A stretch of DNA of 44,413 nucleotides from the IMG/VR virus record IMGVR_UViG_3300020581_000017, positions 1 to 44,413 of that record. One strand, 5' to 3'. The stretch is from a virus. Positions 4,460-33,876 of the stretch are shown here, in pieces (position 1 is the stretch's first letter; the number at the start of each line of letters is the position of its first letter). Under the pieces are notes generated by a model that was not told where the DNA came from, searched no databases, and was given only the letters and a program-made list of their open reading frames with translations. A program made the translations under genes and the position numbers.

Positions 4460-6683
4460 ACGCCGTATACCAGATATCTTTTTTGTCACCTGAAACGTCA
4501 TACCACTTGATGCGCCCGCCCTCATATAGAAGCTCTAGCGTTTGGTCGATTTCCCGTTTTGACCGCACCGAGGGCCCGAGGTCGGCAATCAGGTCTTGCC
4601 GGGACAGCTTGCCACCCTTCGCCGCAATCATTTCAAGGATGCGGCCATAGACCTCGCTATGCGAAAGCTCTTTGTTCATTGATGCCGCTGCATCCGCAAT
4701 CGCGCGCTCGGTGCAATTTTTCGACACGTCGAGTGCCCATAGCATGTCGTGCGTGTCGACCGCGCACCCAGGCCCCCAGCGTCCGGCCGCCATGATGGTC
4801 GCCATCCGCACCGCGTTTTCGGCCGTCCTCGACAAGAACGGCGCTATGTCCGTATCCACCGCCATTCGCTCGCGCGTGAACTCGGCAAAATCGTCAAATG
4901 CCTTTTTTGCCTCTGGCGACTCCCATTCGATATAGAATGGCGGCGTCTCATAGTCCGGGCTTGCGAGGCCTGCTGTTTCGATTTCCGTGCCACCCCATAG
5001 GTAAAGCTCTTGCAACGCCGCGGCGAGGCCGGACGGAATTTCTATTTCGCCCGGTGTTACGGCGCGCACAAAGCGGTCAGAACGGAGGATAAGCAAGCGA
5101 TTTAGGAACCCGTTTTCAATGTCTGCGCCTCGGATTGAGGTATAGAATTCCTTGGGCGTAGACATGGCAAGGACGGAAACCGCAGGGCTGTTAACGGGCG
5201 TTGCCTTTTTCGCCGCGGAACTCGGCGGCAAGTACCTATCAAAAGACGTTGACCAGAGTTCCCGCAAGCCCTTTCCGATCGACTGCTCGAACCCGCTCGC
5301 CTTCCGCCCATTGACGCGGCGAAGAAAGCTCCCCCATTCGTCTTGGCGGAATAGAGCCAACGGATGCGCCTGCACGTCGTTCATCAGGCTTTGCATCGAC
5401 ACCCATTCGCCGGATGTCCCGACATGGTGGAGGGCGCCAGCAGCCTCGAATAGGGCGTCTGTTGCCTTCAGCGGCCGGTCTTTACCGCTCCCGGTCGGCG
5501 CCAGCCCGATGACGTATAGGTGTGTTGCGCTCTTGGTCGGCCCTTGCGCGCGCCGGCCGATAAGTGTCCCGACCGTGGCGAGCGCGGTTCCGAGCGCGAG
5601 GATACGGTTAGGAATGCGAGATGTCTCGGTGACCCAATTGATTATCTGGTTCACCACTCCATTGCAGTGGGTAAGCGCCTCAAGCTGCGCTTCAAATCCG
5701 ACCTCTTTCGGCTCATGCGGGACTATCTGAGTGACGGCGCTTATCTTGATGTACTTGTCGTGCTCCCATAGACGGTCCGTTAGGAACTTGCGCGCCTCGT
5801 CAAAATCACACCCGTTAGCCCGTATGACCAAGTCAATGGGCGTATATCCTTTCGGACCGTCGCCCTCGTCTACGATGCCGCGGGGGTGCAGCTTGAGATT
5901 CAGCTTGCGCTTCTCAAGAGGCTGGCCAGTGTTCGAGGCTCGCCAAGACGGCACGGCCTCATACCCTCCTCGGGCAGGTCTACACCCGAATAGGCCAAGC
6001 GCAGGAACCCACTTTGGCAGGTTCGCTAGCGCGTCGTTGTTCAAGGACCGGAATGGCGTTTCCGGGTCGTCGAAGGCTTGTCCGGGAACCCCGGCTTGTT
6101 GCGGCTTCTCTGCTTTCCAGCCGAAAGGCTTTAAAGCCTCGCCAATGGCCTCGACGTGCTCCATGGTGAGTTCCGGCAGGTCAGCGACGGCAGAGCATTC
6201 AAGCGCCTCGGACCCTATCCAACGGTACGGCTGACCCGTTCCTGGGTGCAAGGTCGGGGGGAGCAGCGTCTGCCTTCCAGGGCCTATCAGGTCGCATGCC
6301 CGCGCGCCCTCGACGTTCCAACTTTTCGACTCGATACCGCTCTCCCGGTAGAAAAGCGTCATTCCCTTGGCACCGACTTTTTTTACGTCCGAGGGCGGAA
6401 TGGCGGAAAGGATTGCGTCGATTATGTCAGAGTCGTCCGTGTCGATATCGACTCCAATCAACCCGCCCGAGGCGGGCCCGCAGACAACACCCACGCCAGC
6501 GTCGGAGTCGGACCACCGGTCGACCTCCTCCTCGGTCGGGGATTGAATTTCTGACCATTTATTAATCCCGACCCACTCGCCGCCGACAAGCTGCCCCGGG
6601 CGCTTGGTTCCCGGAATGATAGGAATGGCCGCATATCCGCGCTCAACTAGCTTAGGTCCAACGTTTGCGTAGGGTGCTGTCAT
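4458..6683 (-). CDS. PrimPol-type primase/helicase
   Basis: Replication protein of 741 residues. The N-terminal part (about 10-195) is a bifunctional primase-polymerase domain: GVDIDTDD (D79 and D81 as metal ligands) and a later LIGPGRQTLLPPT strand-turn with a H and RW pair. A linker rich in short helices leads to a C-terminal ATPase of the DUF3987/primase-helicase kind, with Walker A LAPTGSGKD near 393-401 and a Walker B-like LALFRQDEW about 50 residues later. It would prime and unwind phage DNA. It is the last gene of the leftward replication operon; its ATG overlaps the preceding TGA. Confidence 0.85.
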   Translation of the reverse strand: MTAPYANVGPKLVERGYAAIPIIPGTKRPGQLVGGEWVGINKWSEIQSPTEEEVDRWSDSDAGVGVVCGPASGGLIGVDIDTDDSDIIDAILSAIPPSDVKKVGAKGMTLFYRESGIESKSWNVEGARACDLIGPGRQTLLPPTLHPGTGQPYRWIGSEALECSAVADLPELTMEHVEAIGEALKPFGWKAEKPQQAGVPGQAFDDPETPFRSLNNDALANLPKWVPALGLFGCRPARGGYEAVPSWRASNTGQPLEKRKLNLKLHPRGIVDEGDGPKGYTPIDLVIRANGCDFDEARKFLTDRLWEHDKYIKISAVTQIVPHEPKEVGFEAQLEALTHCNGVVNQIINWVTETSRIPNRILALGTALATVGTLIGRRAQGPTKSATHLYVIGLAPTGSGKDRPLKATDALFEAAGALHHVGTSGEWVSMQSLMNDVQAHPLALFRQDEWGSFLRRVNGRKASGFEQSIGKGLRELWSTSFDRYLPPSSAAKKATPVNSPAVSVLAMSTPKEFYTSIRGADIENGFLNRLLILRSDRFVRAVTPGEIEIPSGLAAALQELYLWGGTEIETAGLASPDYETPPFYIEWESPEAKKAFDDFAEFTRERMAVDTDIAPFLSRTAENAVRMATIMAAGRWGPGCAVDTHDMLWALDVSKNCTERAIADAAASMNKELSHSEVYGRILEMIAAKGGKLSRQDLIADLGPSVRSKREIDQTLELLYEGGRIKWYDVSGDKKDIWYTA

Positions 6684-6970
6684 CGTGCGAAAAACCTCTT
6701 TGCTACGGATGGGAACTCGGTTTCAATCCAAGGCTTGTCTTTGCGTGTTATATTGTACAATGGCACGTGCTCTTCATGTAGCACCCCATTCAGCTCCGTA
6801 TAGCGCTGCGCAGCTAGGTCGCAGTCTTCGTGCGCCTTGTAGACTCCGAACCCGTCATAAGTGTTGACCTGCATTCTGTAGAATTGTCCCGCTTCGATGG
6901 TGCCGCCGCATTGGTCGCAGCGGTGTCGCCTGAACGCCTTGCGAATTTTGTCGCTTAGGATGTATGTCAT
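6680..6970 (-). CDS. Zinc-binding phage protein (CxxC)
   Basis: A 96-residue protein with CDQCGG followed by a HEDC pair about 27 residues on, a common phage zinc-binding arrangement (C-x2-C ... H-x2-C) around a beta hairpin (GQFYRMQVNTYDGFGVYKAHEDC). ATG at 6970 lies three bases after the MazG stop, with AAGG upstream; a TTG two codons earlier is possible. Function unknown. It sits between the MazG and primase genes. Confidence 0.7.
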   Translation of the reverse strand: MTYILSDKIRKAFRRHRCDQCGGTIEAGQFYRMQVNTYDGFGVYKAHEDCDLAAQRYTELNGVLHEEHVPLYNITRKDKPWIETEFPSVAKRFFAR

Positions 6971-17723: not shown

Positions 17724-18644
17724 TTACATCGCTGCGGTGCGCGATTTCTCGATTAGGTTTGTCCCGTTGCCGCGGAACGAGATTACGAAGGTTGCACCGG
17801 ACGTGGTTCCCGTTGCCAGGACTCCGGTCGTTTTGAAGCCTGTACCAAAAGTAATGTTGTAAGAGCTTGTCCCGCTCGTGGTCACGATCAGGTCGAGGTT
17901 TGCGACGGGCGTCGAGTTCGCGTTTAGCGTCACCGCGCCTGTCGGGGTGATGGAGAAAACGTCACTCACAGCCGGGTCGAATGCTACGTTTCCTGTGGTC
18001 CCTAGCGTCGTCACAACGCTGTTGCGCGTTTGCGCTATGGACGGTAGCCCGGACAAATCGCTGAAAACCAGCGTGTCCCACGAGGCGTCAAAATCCGTGC
18101 CCGAGTTTTTCGTCAGAGCCTGCCCGACCGTCCCAGCCCGAGGCATTCCGCTCGACTGCCACGCAAGGGCGAAATCAGCCGAACTAGACTTGGCCAATAC
18201 TTGGTCGGTCGCTCCGCCTGTCGGAACGTCGCTGGGCACGACAAGGATGGTTTTGTAGTAGTTGTGCATTGCGCCGTCGTTTGCATTCGGGTCGAAAGTC
18301 GCATTGCTCGTGTGCGCCCATATGACAACGTAGACGGAGCTTAGGGACGAAACGTAAAACACGTCGTTTAGCGCATACGGCGTGTTCGCCACCCATGCGC
18401 CGCGGAAATTCAACGCCACTTGCGGAAGCGTGAATGTATACGTATTCGCATTGGTCATAGTGACCAAAATTGAATTGGTTGTCGGTTGCGTAATTGACGC
18501 AATGCCAACGCCAACCGTTAGGGCTTCTTGTGCGCGCATGCGGGCGAGCCACGCCCAGTTGTTTCCGTCGCATTCGGTATCGGTCAAAAGGCGATTGACG
18601 CCAGAGCCCCAGGCTCCGTTGTTTTTGAAAATCGGGTCGGCCAT
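17724..18644 (-). CDS. Tail fibre or receptor-binding protein
   Basis: A 306-residue tail protein. Residues about 78-125 form a small aromatic module (NFRGAWVANTPYALNDVFYV) like those in the 1081-residue tail protein, probably for carbohydrate contact. Then come repeats common in fibres (GGATDQVLAKSSSADFALAW and GTVGQALTKNSGTDFDASW), a DLSGLP joint, and a beta-rich C-terminus with VTTSGTSSYNITFGTGF. The last 110 residues resemble the protein at 43347-43820 in layout. It is the last virion gene before the lysis genes. Confidence 0.75.
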   Translation of the reverse strand: MADPIFKNNGAWGSGVNRLLTDTECDGNNWAWLARMRAQEALTVGVGIASITQPTTNSILVTMTNANTYTFTLPQVALNFRGAWVANTPYALNDVFYVSSLSSVYVVIWAHTSNATFDPNANDGAMHNYYKTILVVPSDVPTGGATDQVLAKSSSADFALAWQSSGMPRAGTVGQALTKNSGTDFDASWDTLVFSDLSGLPSIAQTRNSVVTTLGTTGNVAFDPAVSDVFSITPTGAVTLNANSTPVANLDLIVTTSGTSSYNITFGTGFKTTGVLATGTTSGATFVISFRGNGTNLIEKSRTAAM

Positions 18645-20038
18645 TATTGCGGTGTCCCTTGTGGTGCGGGCGGAAGCCCGGGGTCAGGAATGTATTTTTT
18701 GATTTTCCCGGAAGGTGAAAACTGCCCGGATAGATTTATCGAACCATCGGGGTTAATCCCAAGCGCGCCCGTGTTCTTGCCCTTAATCCAATTTCGCGAC
18801 CCGTGGAAAAGAACGTCAGGCTTTTTCCCGGTCGCCGTCACGCCAGGGGGCGGTGAGCCCGGCGCGGCCCCAGGCAACGCCTTAGTAGGGTCGACCGGCT
18901 TGCCGTCCGTTCCAATGAACGCGCGGCGGTTATTCACAACGCTTGTGTCGAGAGTGACTCCGGTAAACATCTGGAACTCGGCAAGCTCGACGTGGTGAAT
19001 GTTGCTGACCGTTTCCAGCACCGAGGGCAGCCCCATTGGCTGCCCTGCGATAGAGATAGAAGCGCCCGACAGGTTGTAAGATGGCGGAGTGTCCTGACCG
19101 GTAAATGTGTCGTCGAACTGATAGAACGTTGCGGCCGTATGGCCCGCCTCGCGGACTCCGGTTTGTTCCGTTGGCGTTGTGGTCGATGTTAAAAACGCGG
19201 ACCACGCAGGGGTTGTTATTATGTCATTCGGTCCTAACGTGGCGCCGAATGGAGTCGGAACGCGCGGGAGGTCGTCGCCAGTGTAGTTCACGTCGTCAAA
19301 CGCAAGCCACAGCTTACAAGTTGACGACAGCGACTGCCCCGCACCGTTAAGATTTCCGGTCGCGACAACGCTTCCGCTCAAATCGAATGACAACAAAACG
19401 TGGTGCCACTTGTCAGGCGATACGGCTATTGTTTGCGACGTGGCCGCGAAGGATTCGTTCTGATTGTTCACTAGGCTTGTTATGTCGCCGTAATCGGTCA
19501 CCACATTAGTTACTGCGCCGGCAATAACGAATGCCCCGTCAATTTCGGCGAGGTCTGTGCACCCTCCGATAACTGTTGGCACGCCCTCATATGCGTTAAC
19601 TGTTCCAGAGCTTCCGCTTATCGGTTCCCACGCTATGCCAGATTTAACGGCTTGGTCCTGGGTTTGCAGGCATACCCTTAAATTCGCCGTAGACGGAAAC
19701 CCGCTTTGACAATCTAGTCCGATATAGCATTGGTCTAGATTGTAATCCGCGTCCCTTGATGTCAGGGGGTATGTGACCGTCTTAGTACTCGTGTATTGAA
19801 GAAGAAGGTCGCACGTGAACGCCGTAGAGTAGACGTTTTCAGTGTATGAATATGAATAGGACGATACATCGTTCCGCGTTCTGAACGCGGAAAAAATCTG
19901 GCCAAACGTGACAATGGGAATAATCCCGTTTGAAGCTGCTGCGCTTTCAATCGACGACTGAGGCGCGCGGAACCAAACGGATATGACGGCCTTGCTAAAG
20001 TTAGGAATGTTGCTCGACGACTGTTCGATATAGCTCAT
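18644..20038 (-). CDS. Tail protein with LamG/ConA-like lectin fold
   Basis: A 464-residue virion protein. The central part reads like a concanavalin A/LamG jelly roll: VISVWFRAPQSS at the start, KWHHVLLSFDLSGSVVATG and CKLWLAFDDVNYTG in the middle, then HVELAEFQMFTG. Such domains bind sugars or decorate tails. A proline/glycine-rich C-terminal stretch (LPGAAPGSPPPGV) follows. A short Ser/Tyr run (SSYSYSYTENVYS) occurs near residue 60. It overlaps its neighbour by four bases and probably contacts the cell surface. Confidence 0.75.
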   Translation of the reverse strand: MSYIEQSSSNIPNFSKAVISVWFRAPQSSIESAAASNGIIPIVTFGQIFSAFRTRNDVSSYSYSYTENVYSTAFTCDLLLQYTSTKTVTYPLTSRDADYNLDQCYIGLDCQSGFPSTANLRVCLQTQDQAVKSGIAWEPISGSSGTVNAYEGVPTVIGGCTDLAEIDGAFVIAGAVTNVVTDYGDITSLVNNQNESFAATSQTIAVSPDKWHHVLLSFDLSGSVVATGNLNGAGQSLSSTCKLWLAFDDVNYTGDDLPRVPTPFGATLGPNDIITTPAWSAFLTSTTTPTEQTGVREAGHTAATFYQFDDTFTGQDTPPSYNLSGASISIAGQPMGLPSVLETVSNIHHVELAEFQMFTGVTLDTSVVNNRRAFIGTDGKPVDPTKALPGAAPGSPPPGVTATGKKPDVLFHGSRNWIKGKNTGALGINPDGSINLSGQFSPSGKIKKYIPDPGLPPAPQGTPQ

Positions 20039-20790: not shown

Positions 20791-21004
20791 CGAACGGAGT
20801 CCCATCCGCCTGCAACTCGGACTCCTTCGCGTCAGCGTAATTCGAATAGCTATACGAATACGAGTAGGAACCGCCAGAAACTTGCGCGCCACCCGCTACG
20901 ACAAGCGTCACGTTTGTTGAAGGCAACGGAACCGAGGCAACTCCCTTTATCGGCTCCGTTCCAATGTCTGCAAACGGGCGAACAATATTTTCAAGAGATG
21001 ACAT
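20783..21004 (-). CDS. Small virion protein with Ser-Tyr repeat
   Basis: A 73-residue protein. A regular beta segment (NVTLVVAGGAQVSGG) is followed by SYSYSYSYSNY and an acidic tail. The alternating Ser/Tyr run is unusual and could form a sticky beta strand. The start overlaps the stop of the 1081-residue gene, so both are read from one message. Similar short runs occur in the LamG-like protein and in the secreted protein at 34148. Confidence 0.65.
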   Translation of the reverse strand: MSSLENIVRPFADIGTEPIKGVASVPLPSTNVTLVVAGGAQVSGGSYSYSYSYSNYADAKESELQADGTPFDG

Positions 21005-24000
21005 TACGTTATCGCCAAGTCTGCTTGTTTCGGTATCGAAAGAGGTGTCACGTTAATATCGTACTCGGCAGCGAAGGGTCCGTTTTGAACCGGCAGCAGT
21101 GACAGCGTGTAGACCGATTGCGATTGCGAAATGGTCTTTTGGAATTGGGCAATCTGGTCTTGAGCTTTTGACGCCAGTGTCAAAACGCCGTCAGTGTAGT
21201 TGCCGTGAGGTCCGCCAATAGAACCACCGCTCGTCGCATTCGAGAACGTTATGAACGTCTCGCCTACAACGGCCGCGTCTTTCGTGAGGGGGAATAGTAA
21301 CCCGTCGTCAATTACCCCGTCCAGAGGAGCGGTGTATCCTACGTCGCTCGTTCCAAGTACCGAGGTGCTACCCGTATACGCCTGATAGCCCGTAGAATAA
21401 TTGGTCGAGTACTCAGGCGTTCCCGTCGCTGACGAGGCGGACCCACCATTACCGACCGCACACGCGAGCTTGATATTTCCGATAAGGGTTCCTCGGTCGC
21501 CGTCACCGGATAGGACCGACTCGACAACCTTGCCCGTGGCGCTTCCGCCCGACGTGCGCAGCCGATGGTCCGTGACGTTGACGGTATTTCGAAGGGTTAT
21601 CCCAATCGCCTTTTCGAACTGGCAATCAAAACTCACCTCGAACGGCCGCGCCCTTTGCATTATGTGCGCTCTGGCGCGGCAGACAAGGTTTTCGATTGAC
21701 CAGTGCCCGCGGTCTTGAGGAAAATAAGACCGGCGTGACAAGTCGCCAATCGGAGTCGGGTTCAACATCAGGCTATAATAAAGTTGCCCCGTGACCGGGT
21801 CGGACGCGAACTGGTCAAAGCTTGCAGCCGTTCGGTGACCAAGCGCAACGCGATACATGTTTCCGTTCGGCGCATAGACCATGTCGCCGGCAACAAGGGT
21901 TTCCCCACCCGCGACCCAGTTGCCGCGGAAATTCGGCACGTTTACGTAAAGCCGCGGGCCTTGGTGCGGGTCAGCGATCGGAGCGTACTTGAATTGACTC
22001 AAAAACGCGTCAACTGTGAACGGTCCTGCGCCAAACGACGAGCCGGTCATACCGGACACCACAACCTGATAATAGCCTGTTGACGGAGCCGCGGCGGTAG
22101 TCGTGTTTCCAGTCGGGTCGTATGAAACGCCTGAGTATTTCAGCGCTCCTAAGTAGCTCGCGGTATCGTAGAAATTGGTCCCAGCGTCAAACCACGTGTT
22201 GGGCTGCCAAGCGCCCGCCGTTCCTAACTGGTCGAAGGATGCAAGCGACACATGGTCGCGCAACACTTGCCACCCGAATGTCCCGTTGCCTGTCGTGAAA
22301 AGGTCGTACAAGTGGTATTGCGTATTGGGCGCCCACTCGCCGCGGAAAATTCCGTAAGGGCCTTCAATGCCGACCTTGCCCTCAAGATGGAGCTCTTCGC
22401 TATCCTGCGCAAAGTTCGCCGCAGTTCCGCCCGGGTCGGTAAACACGGGTTGCAGGTCTGCGCCGAGAATGAAACGAACGTTTTCGGTGCGCTGGCGCTT
22501 AGCCTCGTAGCGCAACGCGAGCATGGTCTTGACCTGCCACGCGAAGAACATTTGCTTCGTTATGGAGTAGCTTCCGCTAGATGCAATGCCCTGCGCCTCG
22601 TCGCCTTCAACCGCCTCGCTCTTCTCGTCGGTAGTCACCTCAAATATTGGAGCCGTTATGTTCCCACCTGGGCCAGATATGCTTAGGCTAGAGTTCCAAT
22701 TCATAACATCGTCGAAATGATGGGTTGTTTCTTTGTTTTCAAAACTCCAAGTATATGACAACGATTGCGTTACGGCCTGATTATCAACCGCCTGCGAGTG
22801 GGCAACAGTCCAGCCGGACCCAATGTCGGTTCCCATTTTTGGCCACGAACCCAATAGACCGGCGCCGCTGATGGAATTGAAAGACTTGTTTCCTATGTCG
22901 ATAATTCCAATTGCGTACTGCACCCAATCGACAGTAGAATTTACATAAACACTTTTTAGAGGGGGCTTTCCAATGGCCGTTTTGAAATTGTCATAAAGCA
23001 CGTCGCTTGTAGAAAGCGTGACTAAACCGGCCTCGCCCGTAATGTAGTCCGACGTTGTGACGGAGAGGGTTACCGGGTCAACATGCCATGCGGCCGAATA
23101 GCCTTCCAACACCTCGTCGGGGTCGAGCCTTCGTTCCTCGCGAACCCATACCGGGTCGTAGTATGGCCGCACCATCAGCGTCGAGGCAATCGCGCGCTTC
23201 TGGTTGAGCATGTCTAGCGGCTGCGCCGTAAAATGCAGCGTGATGGTCTCCGACTCCATGTCGGCAGGAATAGAGACCAAGCGGCCGAAGAACAGCGGGA
23301 CAACCGTTGTGTCTAAACGACGATACGAGAACCACGCCCATTGCTGCCGACCGCTCGCCAGCAGGCCTGTGAACGGGTTCGGAATCTCTATCTCAAGTAT
23401 CGCGCATTGGGACTCTTTCCACTCGCGCTTGAATTTTAGGATAGGCGTATCGACGCGTTGATGCTGCGGGCCGAACGTGGTCTCGCTTGGGTCGGCCCAG
23501 GCGAAAAAGAATGGTCCTGCGGTGTTCGAGGATCCGTGAACGGAAGCTTGGCCATCGGCATGTCCGGCCGCGCCGACCGTAGCCGCGCCACCGCCAGAGA
23601 CGGAAGCTTGCCCATCCGCCTCGCCCGCGCTCGGTCCCGCGGTGTGGCCAGCGACGCTCGCCTGTCCGTCAGCCTCGCCAGTGGCATGGGCCGCCGAACG
23701 GCCAACGCCAGCAACGCTTGCCGTGCCGTCTGCGGCGCCACCTGAGGCGCGTACGGTGCGGCTTGCGCCTGATACGGTAGCTTGCCCGTCAGCATGCCCA
23801 GCGCCGCTTGTAGCGCCGCCACCGCCAGATACAGAGGCTTGGCCGTCAGCCTCGCCTGCGCCCTTAAAGACAGACTTGCTGGCGCCCGAGACGCTAGCCG
23901 TGCCATCGGCGTGGCCTGTACCTGTTGCGGTAATCGAATAGCCCGCGCCAGAAACGTCGGCAGAGCCATCCGCCTCGCCTGCGCCCTTGGCAATAGAGGC

Positions 24001-24249
24001 TCCGACTCCGGCAACGCTCGCAGTTCCGTCAGCCTCGCCAGCGCCTAGTCGGCCGGTTAAGCCAGAGCCAGAGACGCTTGCCGTACCGTCAGCCGCGCCC
24101 GTGCCCTTTGCGATAGATGCGCCAACGCCAGATACGCTAGCCGCGCCGTCTGCTTCGCCTGCGCCAGTCGCAACGAGGTCAAGGACAGTGAGAACAGATG
24201 ACCTAATGCCCGCGCGACTTGACGGTATAGCATAGGTCTTCGTACTCAT
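21004..24249 (-). CDS. Large tail-tip protein with N-terminal ADG/SVSG repeats
   Basis: The largest protein of the window (1081 residues). Residues about 28-248 are 11 imperfect units of roughly 18-22 residues built on GxGxADGxASVSGxG. The rest is a tail-tip/host-contact protein: an early beta domain (PILKFKREWKESQ...EIEIPNPFTG), modules with FRGEWAPNTQYHLYDLF (near 632) and NFRGNWVAGGETL (near 771), and a late QRARPFEVSFDCQFEKAIGI stretch typical of tail tip proteins that build on a hub. It follows the 511-residue gene with a four-base overlap. The repeat array may act as a flexible stalk. Confidence 0.8.
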   Translation of the reverse strand: MSTKTYAIPSSRAGIRSSVLTVLDLVATGAGEADGAASVSGVGASIAKGTGAADGTASVSGSGLTGRLGAGEADGTASVAGVGASIAKGAGEADGSADVSGAGYSITATGTGHADGTASVSGASKSVFKGAGEADGQASVSGGGGATSGAGHADGQATVSGASRTVRASGGAADGTASVAGVGRSAAHATGEADGQASVAGHTAGPSAGEADGQASVSGGGAATVGAAGHADGQASVHGSSNTAGPFFFAWADPSETTFGPQHQRVDTPILKFKREWKESQCAILEIEIPNPFTGLLASGRQQWAWFSYRRLDTTVVPLFFGRLVSIPADMESETITLHFTAQPLDMLNQKRAIASTLMVRPYYDPVWVREERRLDPDEVLEGYSAAWHVDPVTLSVTTSDYITGEAGLVTLSTSDVLYDNFKTAIGKPPLKSVYVNSTVDWVQYAIGIIDIGNKSFNSISGAGLLGSWPKMGTDIGSGWTVAHSQAVDNQAVTQSLSYTWSFENKETTHHFDDVMNWNSSLSISGPGGNITAPIFEVTTDEKSEAVEGDEAQGIASSGSYSITKQMFFAWQVKTMLALRYEAKRQRTENVRFILGADLQPVFTDPGGTAANFAQDSEELHLEGKVGIEGPYGIFRGEWAPNTQYHLYDLFTTGNGTFGWQVLRDHVSLASFDQLGTAGAWQPNTWFDAGTNFYDTASYLGALKYSGVSYDPTGNTTTAAAPSTGYYQVVVSGMTGSSFGAGPFTVDAFLSQFKYAPIADPHQGPRLYVNVPNFRGNWVAGGETLVAGDMVYAPNGNMYRVALGHRTAASFDQFASDPVTGQLYYSLMLNPTPIGDLSRRSYFPQDRGHWSIENLVCRARAHIMQRARPFEVSFDCQFEKAIGITLRNTVNVTDHRLRTSGGSATGKVVESVLSGDGDRGTLIGNIKLACAVGNGGSASSATGTPEYSTNYSTGYQAYTGSTSVLGTSDVGYTAPLDGVIDDGLLFPLTKDAAVVGETFITFSNATSGGSIGGPHGNYTDGVLTLASKAQDQIAQFQKTISQSQSVYTLSLLPVQNGPFAAEYDINVTPLSIPKQADLAIT
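23510..24170 (-). repeat. Tandem imperfect repeats coding ADG/SVSG units
   Basis: About 11 tandem units of roughly 57-63 bases, each coding [A/G]-G-x-ADG-x-A-[ST]-V-[SA]-G. GCCGACGG- and SVSG-coding stretches recur many times, so the array should recombine easily and vary in copy number between relatives. Confidence 0.85.
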
Positions 24250-26817: not shown

Positions 26818-26883
26818 CCCCTGCCGCGCAATAGATAGCGGGCTCTGCGCTGCGAGGACTCGCCGTTAACGGCGCGGCAGGGG
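26818..26883. repeat. Long inverted repeat at the 3' end of the HNH gene
   Basis: Perfect 12-bp arms CCCCTGCCGCGC (26818-26829) and GCGCGGCAGGGG (26872-26883) with 42 bases between them. Nested near the right arm is the 14-bp palindrome CGCCGTTAACGGCG (26861-26874). The right arm codes the last residues of the HNH protein. Unlike a plain terminator there is no T run. Confidence 0.75.
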
Positions 26884-27183
26884 CAATGCGAAGCGCTTAG
26901 CGCGCTCTTGATTTGTCTTAGTCGTATGGCATGACCCGCAAAGGGCCTGCCCGTTTGTCATGTCGAGCGCCATACTCGGGTCGTCCTTAAGCTCGACAAT
27001 GTGGTCGGCGAAAAGCAACTTGCCGGTTTGCAGGCATTTGTCGCAGCGCCCGTTAGCCCGGAAAATCACCGCGGCCGACCACCGCTTGTGCTCTGGCGTA
27101 CGGTAGTGGCCATTGCGGTCGTCTACTTGCCGAACGGTGCGAAGGTCGAGGACCCCTCGACGAGGAAGCATCTTAACGGGCAT
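26866..27183 (-). CDS. HNH endonuclease in the tail region
   Basis: A 105-residue HNH protein: RWSAAVIFRANGRCDKCLQ, then DHIVELKDDPSMALDMTNGQALC, then GSCHTTKTNQERAKR. The CxxC pairs (CDKC and CGSC) hold structural zinc, and the H of DHIV, the N and the H of CHTT form the metal-binding core. In many HK97-type phages such a small HNH lies beside the terminase and helps DNA packaging; here it follows the tape measure gene. The ATG overlaps the tape measure stop by 11 bases. Packaging or homing roles are both possible. Confidence 0.85.
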   Translation of the reverse strand: MPVKMLPRRGVLDLRTVRQVDDRNGHYRTPEHKRWSAAVIFRANGRCDKCLQTGKLLFADHIVELKDDPSMALDMTNGQALCGSCHTTKTNQERAKRFALPLPRR

Positions 27184-31680: not shown

Positions 31681-32166
31681 TTAAAGCTCAGTAGATTTGA
31701 GCGGATACGTGATTTGAAAATTAAGCGAGACTCTTCCGATTGTCGAGCGACCGGGAACTATCTCGCTTGCCATTCCCTGATAGAGTACTCGCCCGTTAGT
31801 TCCGTAAATTGACGCCAAAGTCGCATCGGTCAAAATCGCCTTCACAAGGCCGACCCTAATTGCGCTTAGCTTAGGGCCGAGATTATCCGCCCAAATATTC
31901 GTACCGCCAACCTGAACAATATTTCCAGGCGGCGCCATCGCGGTGACCATAATATAAGGTACCATATGCACACGATTAGGAATCTGTCCCGAACGTCCAA
32001 GAGCTTGGTCGCGGTCGTCAATCTCCTCGTCGCCCTCGAAAACAATCGCGGCAGGTAATAGCTTGTCGGGTGGGTCATAGTAATTCCTACCCGCAAGGGC
32101 GATAATAGGCTGCGCCGCGGCTATCGCCACAAGCTGATTAAGTAGCGCCTCGCGACGGTCGGTCAT
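31681..32166 (-). CDS. Tail terminator/completion-like protein
   Basis: A 161-residue protein: helix TDRREALLNQLVAIAAAQP, strand LPAAIVFEGDEEI, VHMVPYIMVTAM, then helix LSAIRVGLVKAILTDATL and strand VSLNFQITYP. A helix plus beta sheet with this order is the layout of tail terminator (gpU-like) proteins that stop tube growth and dock to the head. The position immediately before the tail tube gene in reading order agrees. ATGA-type overlap with the upstream gene. Confidence 0.7.
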   Translation of the reverse strand: MTDRREALLNQLVAIAAAQPIIALAGRNYYDPPDKLLPAAIVFEGDEEIDDRDQALGRSGQIPNRVHMVPYIMVTAMAPPGNIVQVGGTNIWADNLGPKLSAIRVGLVKAILTDATLASIYGTNGRVLYQGMASEIVPGRSTIGRVSLNFQITYPLKSTEL

Positions 32167-32627
32167 GCTGTAGCACCTCCGCCCGTCACGTTGGCCGAGC
32201 CATCGGCCTCGCCGCGCGGTGTCGCGTCGCCCGAGACGATTGACGAGCCATCGGATTGGCCGCCCGCCATGACCACCTCGGCGATAGTCAATATCAATTC
32301 AAGCTCGCCGTCGTCCTCCCCGTTAGGGGACGGTTTCGGCTCATAGCTTCGAATGCGCCACGAACGGTTGCTGAAAATAACCGATGCCATGTCGAGCGCG
32401 GTAATTGTCGCGTTGAGCGCGGCGAGCCCGCCTGCAAGCTCGGGCATTCGGACGCGACACATCGGGGTTACCGTTTCGACAATCATCCCGTGGCCGAGCT
32501 TCTCGGACGACCCTGCCGTGCGGTCGAGCACAAGGACGGAAACGTTTCCGGCAGGTGTCGTTATCAGTGCGTCGACTCCGTGAAACCCGTATATCGGGCC
32601 ATAAAGGAGTGTTTGATAATCAATCAT
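32163..32627 (-). CDS. Head-tail joining protein with C-terminal ADG-type tail
   Basis: A 154-residue protein. The first 115 residues look like a small barrel (VDALITTPAGNVSVLVLD, VETVTPMCRVRMPELAGG, ELELILTIAEVVM), suited to a head closure or joining role given its place before the tail terminator. The last 35 residues repeat the ADG pattern: QSDGSSIVSGDATPRG and EADGSANVTGGG, like the repeats at the front of the 1081-residue tail protein. It overlaps the glycosyltransferase gene by four bases. Confidence 0.65.
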   Translation of the reverse strand: MIDYQTLLYGPIYGFHGVDALITTPAGNVSVLVLDRTAGSSEKLGHGMIVETVTPMCRVRMPELAGGLAALNATITALDMASVIFSNRSWRIRSYEPKPSPNGEDDGELELILTIAEVVMAGGQSDGSSIVSGDATPRGEADGSANVTGGGATA

Positions 32628-33586
32628 GACGCGGTGTTCATTGACATAAAGGAAGCGACAACCGGCGAGGCGCTGGAGTCTTCGTCGCGCGCGAGCAGGT
32701 ACCTATTCCAATCGTTCTCAAGCTGAGGCTTGTTTCCGGCGAATTCAATAACACCGTATGAATTGCGCTTAAGATCCGTGTGCGGGTTGAACCCGTGCTT
32801 TACGAACATTTCCCAACGGCCTTGATAGGCGCGATTGGCTTTTGTTCCGTGGAAAGGATGTTCAATCGTCGACCATATGTGGCCCAGCTTGCCTCGGGCG
32901 GCGACGGCCGCACGGGCTTGCCAAGCAAGAATTGCGTCCATGTACTCTGAGCCGACCCTGCCATCCACCGATTTTTGTCCATATCCCACCATTGCTAGTG
33001 CCATGTGGTAGTCGCCAGAGCCCATCCCACCAAAATCAATAAGACCGCCCACAGCGTCAAGAAAATCTCGTCGCCATGCCCAGGCATATCCGGGGTGCGG
33101 GTAATCAATGGGTCCGCCTTCGAATTTCCAGAGCTTTCCGGTATTGACGACCGGAAAACCTGCGACATATTGCCGCCCGAAACTAACGTGATGCTGCAAA
33201 ATTTCATCGCGCGGACCGAGGTCGAGCGCGTCCGACCACATTTGCACGACTGGCCAGAGGTCGAGCGCTTTGACCGTCTTATCCATCCATGAGTCGTCGC
33301 GCCAAGTAACGTCGGCGTCGATAGTTGCAATCTTTGAAATATCGTGCGGAAGCGATGCAATGCCGATATTGAGCAGGTTTTCTTTCGACCACGCCGTCGT
33401 CGTCGCTCGAACTCCGATATGCTTAATTCTAGGTAACCCAGAAAGCTCAAAAGCTCGGTCACCGTGAGCACATTCGACTAGCGTCACAGCGGCACCATGT
33501 CCTACCCAAGACGTAATAGCCTTGGTGGCCAAATCGATGCGGCTGCGCCAGCCGTGCGGGTTGGAAACGCAAGTGACGACGTGCAT
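32624..33586 (-). CDS. Glycosyltransferase (GT-A fold)
   Basis: A 320-residue enzyme. It begins MHVVTCVSNPHGWRSRIDL and has IATIDADVTWRDDSW, whose D-A-D is the metal/nucleotide-sugar binding motif of GT-A glycosyltransferases, then YAWAWRRDFLDAVGG (the GGF/W-type loop) and GMGSGDYHM. ATG at 33586 has GGGGGA upstream; the frame extends further but without a site. It lies among head-tail genes, so it may glycosylate virion proteins or host surface sugars. Substrate unknown. Confidence 0.8.
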   Translation of the reverse strand: MHVVTCVSNPHGWRSRIDLATKAITSWVGHGAAVTLVECAHGDRAFELSGLPRIKHIGVRATTTAWSKENLLNIGIASLPHDISKIATIDADVTWRDDSWMDKTVKALDLWPVVQMWSDALDLGPRDEILQHHVSFGRQYVAGFPVVNTGKLWKFEGGPIDYPHPGYAWAWRRDFLDAVGGLIDFGGMGSGDYHMALAMVGYGQKSVDGRVGSEYMDAILAWQARAAVAARGKLGHIWSTIEHPFHGTKANRAYQGRWEMFVKHGFNPHTDLKRNSYGVIEFAGNKPQLENDWNRYLLARDEDSSASPVVASFMSMNTAS

Positions 33587-33597
33587 AGCGTCCCCCT

Positions 33598-33876
33598 TTA
33601 GGTAAGAGCTTCGATGCCGACAACCGTTGTGTTTGTGCTTAAAACGCGCGTCACGCGCACGTAGCGAGTTTCGCCCGCCGCGAAAGCCAACGTGCGAGGG
33701 TTGGCGCTTCCGCCACCGCGGGTCCAAACGACCATGTTACCGGCCGCGTTTGCGCGAAGCCCCTTGGCCGCGGTCGGCAGGTCGACCGAGTCGCTCTTGG
33801 TGACCGGGTAGGCGTCTTCTGCTGCCGAGGACGGCAGGAAATTAAAGATATCGTTCGGGTCGTTTGCATTCGCCAT
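33598..33876 (-). CDS. Spike-base-like protein, copy 2 (RcGTA Rcc01079-like)
   Basis: A 92-residue protein: NDPNDIFNFLPSSAAEDAYP, VTKSDSVDLPTAAKGLRANA, GNMVVWTRGG, then RTLAFAAGETRYVRVTRVLS and a last TTVVGIEAL. This order (V-T-x-S-D-S-x-D-L-P, a G-L turn, G-ETRY-VRVTRVL) matches small head-spike base proteins of the RcGTA type. It shares about half its residues with the next gene in the window, so it is a tandem duplicate. Its ATG overlaps the stop of copy 1. Confidence 0.75.
   Translation of the reverse strand: MANANDPNDIFNFLPSSAAEDAYPVTKSDSVDLPTAAKGLRANAAGNMVVWTRGGGSANPRTLAFAAGETRYVRVTRVLSTNTTVVGIEALT

Follow-up and report, generated by a model that had tools for sequence, protein, structure and literature searches.

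What is the repeat array that opens the 1081-residue protein of this phage, which is known from environmental DNA only, and is it an integral part of the protein that carries it? We have addressed this using the window, i.e. the whole 44,413-nucleotide stretch of viral DNA that was analyzed, together with related viral contigs. The array comprises eleven units with the invariant core GxADGxAxVxG, and the features of the locus are collected in Table 1. Successive units are spaced by 20, 20, 20, 21, 20, 19, 20, 20, 18 and 20 residues, i.e. in the range 18 to 21 and mostly 20. The pattern G.ADG.A.V.G has exactly 11 matches in the array, compared with a mean of 0.0007 and a maximum of 1 in 20,000 shuffles of the segment. 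The original prediction of eleven ADG/SVSG repeats at the front of this protein is therefore upheld, and its consensus and extent (residues 28-248) were right to within ~10 residues. The profile search that was proposed with it was run with an HMM of the unit, built from the arrays with the window's own units included. This gave 11 matches in the hub array, as expected for the 20-residue AxGxAxVxG repeat of phage proteins, and revealed further units in other phage proteins.

Table 1. Positions of the repeat units, their carrier proteins and the neighboring gene in the window.
Feature	Coordinates	Strand	Basis or remark
511-aa gene, immediately upstream of the hub gene; within the block replaced in L003	24246..25781	minus	
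Hub gene, 1081 aa (P0001)	21004..24249	minus	ORF; Foldseek of residues 245-1081
Leader, 27 residues, ahead of unit 1; without counterpart in L003	24169..24249	minus	
Eleven ADG units, residues 28-240	23530..24168	minus	Motif scan and shuffles
Units 1-3; no one-to-one partner in L003; border of exchanged block	23989..24168	minus	
Units 4-11, corresponding one to one to L003 units 1-8	23530..23988	minus	dN/dS 0.12
Hub core, starting at GPFFFAW; gene start lies here in 11 distant relatives	21004..23517	minus	
Protein of neck / head-tail joining type, 154 aa	32163..32627	minus	Role inferred by position: between tail terminator-like and head genes
Two further ADG units, C-terminal tail of the neck protein	32166..32267	minus	Unit HMM, E = 1.2e-4

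We consider first the protein that carries the array. No Pfam family matches it. An AlphaFold2 model of residues 245-1081, calculated with 13 sequences in the alignment, has a mean pLDDT of 60 with defined parts at 80-90, and is thus confident in parts only. Used as the query in Foldseek, this model retrieves the T5 tail-tip protein (7zhj_b, E = 1.2e-6), and also VgrG and gp27-like hubs, in agreement with the tail-tip domain that had been predicted to follow the repeats. Through these matches the protein displays the duplicated tail-tube domains of hubs of the T5 pb3 or gp27-VgrG type, and its gene is located after the tape-measure gene, as for a siphophage tail hub. The window also codes for tape-measure, major tail, portal, protease, capsid and terminase proteins. 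From this set of structural genes it follows that the phage is of siphovirus type and that the 1081-residue protein is its hub. As judged from the model, the residues after the repeats form a hub of the T5 pb3 or gp27-VgrG type. In T5 the tail tube is closed by pb3, a trimeric baseplate hub (PMC10038345).

Do other hubs of this kind possess the array? A profile search of viral contigs revealed 11 distant hub relatives (L078-L088), with best segments that are 30-42% identical; one further relative (L089) is incomplete and is not counted among the 11. ADG units are present in none of the 11. In nine of them the stop-free frame starts within ~30 residues ahead of GPFFFAW or its equivalent, and the extra sequence in L085 and L087 sits after GPFFFAW and is not ADG-like. 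In most of these relatives the gene corresponding to the window's 144-aa gene is followed directly, or with an overlap, by the hub gene. In the window a 180-aa gene, the 511-aa gene and the array lie between the core of the 144-aa gene and that of the hub. Since the hub begins at GPFFFAW in the 11 distant relatives, with no room for an arm, we conclude that the array is an accretion. Searches of GenBank phages by tblastn with the whole protein, the repeat region or the hub relative L078 gave no match, and here low-complexity filtering may hide repeats. A small HNH endonuclease gene (26866-27183, minus strand; PF01844, E = 8e-8) lies between the tape-measure and 144-aa genes of the window, unlike most relatives, in which those two genes are adjacent.

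The nearest relative, L003, has a hub protein that is 85% identical to that of the window. It begins with a ~250-residue domain ending NPWDFWYP, followed by eight ADG units and then the hub. Units 4-11 of the window align one to one with units 1-8 of L003, and the odd spacings are retained. A ConA/LamG-like domain in L003 takes the place of the window leader and units 1-3. At the nucleotide level L003 contains nothing orthologous to the 511-aa gene, the leader or units 1-3, apart from short cross-matches between units, and for that reason the difference in unit number is tied to the replacement of a block that has one edge inside the array. The array marks the border of the exchanged block, with an outer part that is open to exchange and with inner units and a hub that are retained.

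The units differ considerably at the level of DNA. Tandem Repeats Finder (TRF) reports no array at the hub repeat region of the window, and the mean nucleotide identity among the 14-residue cores of the units is 0.64. Codon identity at the invariant residues of unit pairs is 0.41, compared with 0.34 expected from codon usage. Near-identical DNA units, such as a slippage repeat requires, are therefore not found in this array, which is a repeat of the protein and not of the DNA. The units are old duplicates that have been held alike at the protein level, with synonymous codons nearly randomized. Comparison of the window with L003 gives dN/dS = 0.12 for the repeats, much as for the hub core (0.11), with dS ~0.9, and the orthologous motif residues are 92% identical. 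The repeats are under purifying selection, as is the hub core.

The same phage has a second site of this kind. A protein that is probably a neck protein, given the position and type of its gene, has two ADG units as its C-terminal end; no family match was found for this protein. Six relatives of this protein end about where the units would begin, and both units are kept in L107, which is 83% identical in DNA. As units are present on the hub and the neck protein, bordering the conserved core in each case, the phage has added one type of unit to two virion proteins. Adjoining the neck gene is an ORF of 367 residues (32624-33727, minus strand), which has no Pfam match and is glycosyltransferase-like by eye (DADV motif).

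In other phages the units are located ahead of a DUF2460 tail domain. There are eight in L005, ~6 in L021, at least four in L006 and three in L008, where DUF2460 was assigned by Pfam in L005, L021 and L008 and by likeness in L006. Both L005 and L021 open with a domain that can be aligned with that of L003, giving the order domain, ADG units, DUF2460. L010, which ends at a contig edge, has a similar closing motif and then three units. The L003-type domain is mostly a free-standing protein of ~260-290 residues; it is fused to a hub or DUF2460 protein in L003, L005 and L021 only, and the window copy has none. We describe its concanavalin-like fold as probable, because the Laminin_G_3 signal is weak, being seen in two of 13 members with a best E = 3e-4. 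Two genes downstream of the hub in the window, a 464-residue protein (18644-20038, minus strand) gives a sub-threshold Laminin_G_3 signal (E = 0.049), and is possibly another ConA-like tail module.

The unit is a member of a broad family of phage repeats. When the pattern was relaxed to two copies of AxGxAxVxG at a distance of 20 residues, 67 stretches of viral contigs matched, many of which are long arrays. The 20-residue period is partly built into that pattern; for neighboring units found by the HMM, 144 of ~210 spacings are 20. Models from Pfam, NCBIfam and PHROG gave no match to the unit, so it has probably been overlooked in annotation. A sequence search of the PDB with the repeat gave no match, and a narrow search of the open-access literature found no account of a 20-residue repeat in phage tail proteins. 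The strict tandem ADG pattern has just two matches in 85k bacterial and archaeal genomes, in Micropruina and Cohnella. Both are short Gly-rich runs of other spacing, and were judged to be unrelated. RTX, YadA-head and collagen-type repeats were set aside, as they probably differ in spacing or signature residues. An AxGxAxVxG array lies upstream of a tail-terminator domain in L053 (2074-5145, plus strand) within one 1024-residue frame, apparently a fusion. One phage contig, L067, has three distinct reading frames that each contain AxGxAxVxG units, which suggests that a phage may have several decorated proteins.

What structure might the units adopt? AlphaFold2 with 18 arrays predicts two strands per unit around an Asp-Gly turn, with a mean pLDDT of 63, blocks reaching ~79 and pTM = 0.59. 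A fold search of the PDB with this model gave no significant match (best E = 0.8), and two uncharacterized phage proteins in BFVD match it. AlphaFold2 is known to generate spurious beta-solenoids for perfect repeats (PMC11795689). The window repeats are imperfect, and their small and polar residues alternate over an even period. Such alternation fits beta structure, and for this reason we favor a beta fold. Yet the moderate confidence of the prediction, the lack of a PDB fold match and the bias of AlphaFold2 mean that the fold is something we infer. From the model a regular beta-rich stalk is plausible, whether as a stack of hairpins or as a solenoid. The stacked or beta-solenoid-like stalk of the original prediction thus gains two predicted strands per unit, but at moderate confidence and with no counterpart among PDB folds.

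Could the array instead be a disordered, flexible linker rich in Gly, Ala and Ser, with a pattern that results from duplication and a beta prediction that is an artefact of AlphaFold2? The composition of small residues, pLDDT values mostly of 50-80 and the PDB result are all in keeping with this, as is the published bias. However, V, A, D and G keep their positions without exception in all 11 units despite nearly randomized codons, and both the core and the period of 20 residues reappear in phage proteins that are unrelated. Taken with the conservation of the orthologous motif residues at dS 0.9, this is a pattern that plain linkers rarely keep, and we regard a disordered linker as unlikely.

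On balance we lean toward the array being a portable add-on module of the virion surface that is not intrinsic to the hub, with units of beta structure and a role as spacer or decoration, much as the accessory binding modules of other siphophages function. Each 20-residue unit would comprise a strand, an Asp-Gly turn and a second strand, forming a short two-stranded beta element with its small residues (G, A, A, V, G) directed inward and its polar residues (E/H, Q/T, S, S) outward. The units would stack to form an arm projecting from the N-terminus of the hub; a trimeric hub, as in T5, would have three such arms. In L003, L005 and L021 the arm could act as a spacer that keeps the LamG-like, probably sugar-binding, domain away from the tail tip, and the presence of that domain at the far end of the units lends support to this role. 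A spacer role is not evident in the window, because its copy has no LamG-like domain. The window arm, with its 27 residues at the far end, may be a bare stalk that is left after domain exchange, or might itself be a weak surface-binding decoration. The two units on the neck protein fit the latter. It counts against this reading that a large number of related arrays stand alone as proteins, and so have no domain to hold out.

A different possibility is that the units are themselves a weak adhesive, with a polar Ser/Thr/Gln-rich beta face that binds host glycans or surfaces with no need of a LamG-like domain. The bare arm of the window, the two bare units on the neck protein and the numerous stand-alone arrays could all be explained in this way. 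There is precedent in the 936 lactococcal phages, where binding modules are found on the neck, major tail protein and Dit, and two of these bound host cells (PMC6669499). But where the architecture is informative (L003, L005 and L021) an alternative binding domain is present, and we think an adhesive function of the units rather improbable.

The DNA repeats were also predicted to allow rapid length change, and here the data point the other way. Unit numbers do vary among arrays (11, 8, 8, 6 and 3), so they are not fixed in all relatives, and the DNA units of L005 are more alike, being detected by TRF with a codon identity of 0.65; but TRF finds no array in the window, the eight units shared with L003 still pair one to one at dS ~0.9, the three-unit difference accompanies the swap of the entire N-terminal block, and L002 (a second contig of the same phage, 100% identical, and the sole near-identical genome compared) likewise has 11 units, making a contingency tandem repeat that tunes the reach of the tail highly improbable. 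The array does not combine a unit number fixed in all relatives with disorder that lacks a conserved pattern. The L005 units (6296-6738) are a DNA-level tandem repeat with a period of 60 and 7.4 copies by TRF, younger-looking than the window array. Arrays of differing age therefore exist.

How does the array compare with known systems? The core of the window protein shares its fold with T5 pb3, the RcGTA hub and the gp27-VgrG hubs, and its gene is likewise placed after the tape-measure region. It differs in its N-terminal repeat arm, which is missing from all 11 hub relatives found. The other AxGxAxVxG phage repeat proteins (L026, L041, L062 and BFVD A0A6J7WEZ6, which matches the repeat model with E = 1.4e-5 and 30% identity) have the core pattern and the period in common with the window. 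However, they usually have A, S or T at position 1, which is D in the window, and they are mostly long arrays with no identified partner domain. Ig-like domains on phage structural proteins are promiscuous add-ons at protein ends. The window units are also add-ons at protein ends, but they differ in sequence and size, and the model indicates no Ig fold.

Descriptions of accessory binding modules in phages usually concern globular domains of the CBM or Ig-like kind. We tentatively suggest, as a possibility of lesser weight than the add-on module itself, that the AxGxAxVxG unit is an unrecognized brick used on hub, DUF2460, tail-terminator and neck proteins, its arms bearing carbohydrate-binding domains, or standing in for them, at several virion sites. 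If so, a short portable repeat at several virion sites would represent a building brick of another kind, and a repeat that tolerates replacement of its outer part would provide a natural junction for the exchange of surface-contact domains. The closest parallel is with the accessory CBMs of 936 lactococcal siphophages and with evolved Dit proteins (PMC6669499, PMC10688798). There too modules have been added to several virion proteins including the neck and tail tip, just as the relatives found here fuse a LamG-like domain to a hub or DUF2460 protein. Those modules are globular with demonstrated binding, whereas that of the window is a 20-residue unit known from its sequence, located at the N-terminus of the hub and the C-terminus of the neck protein.
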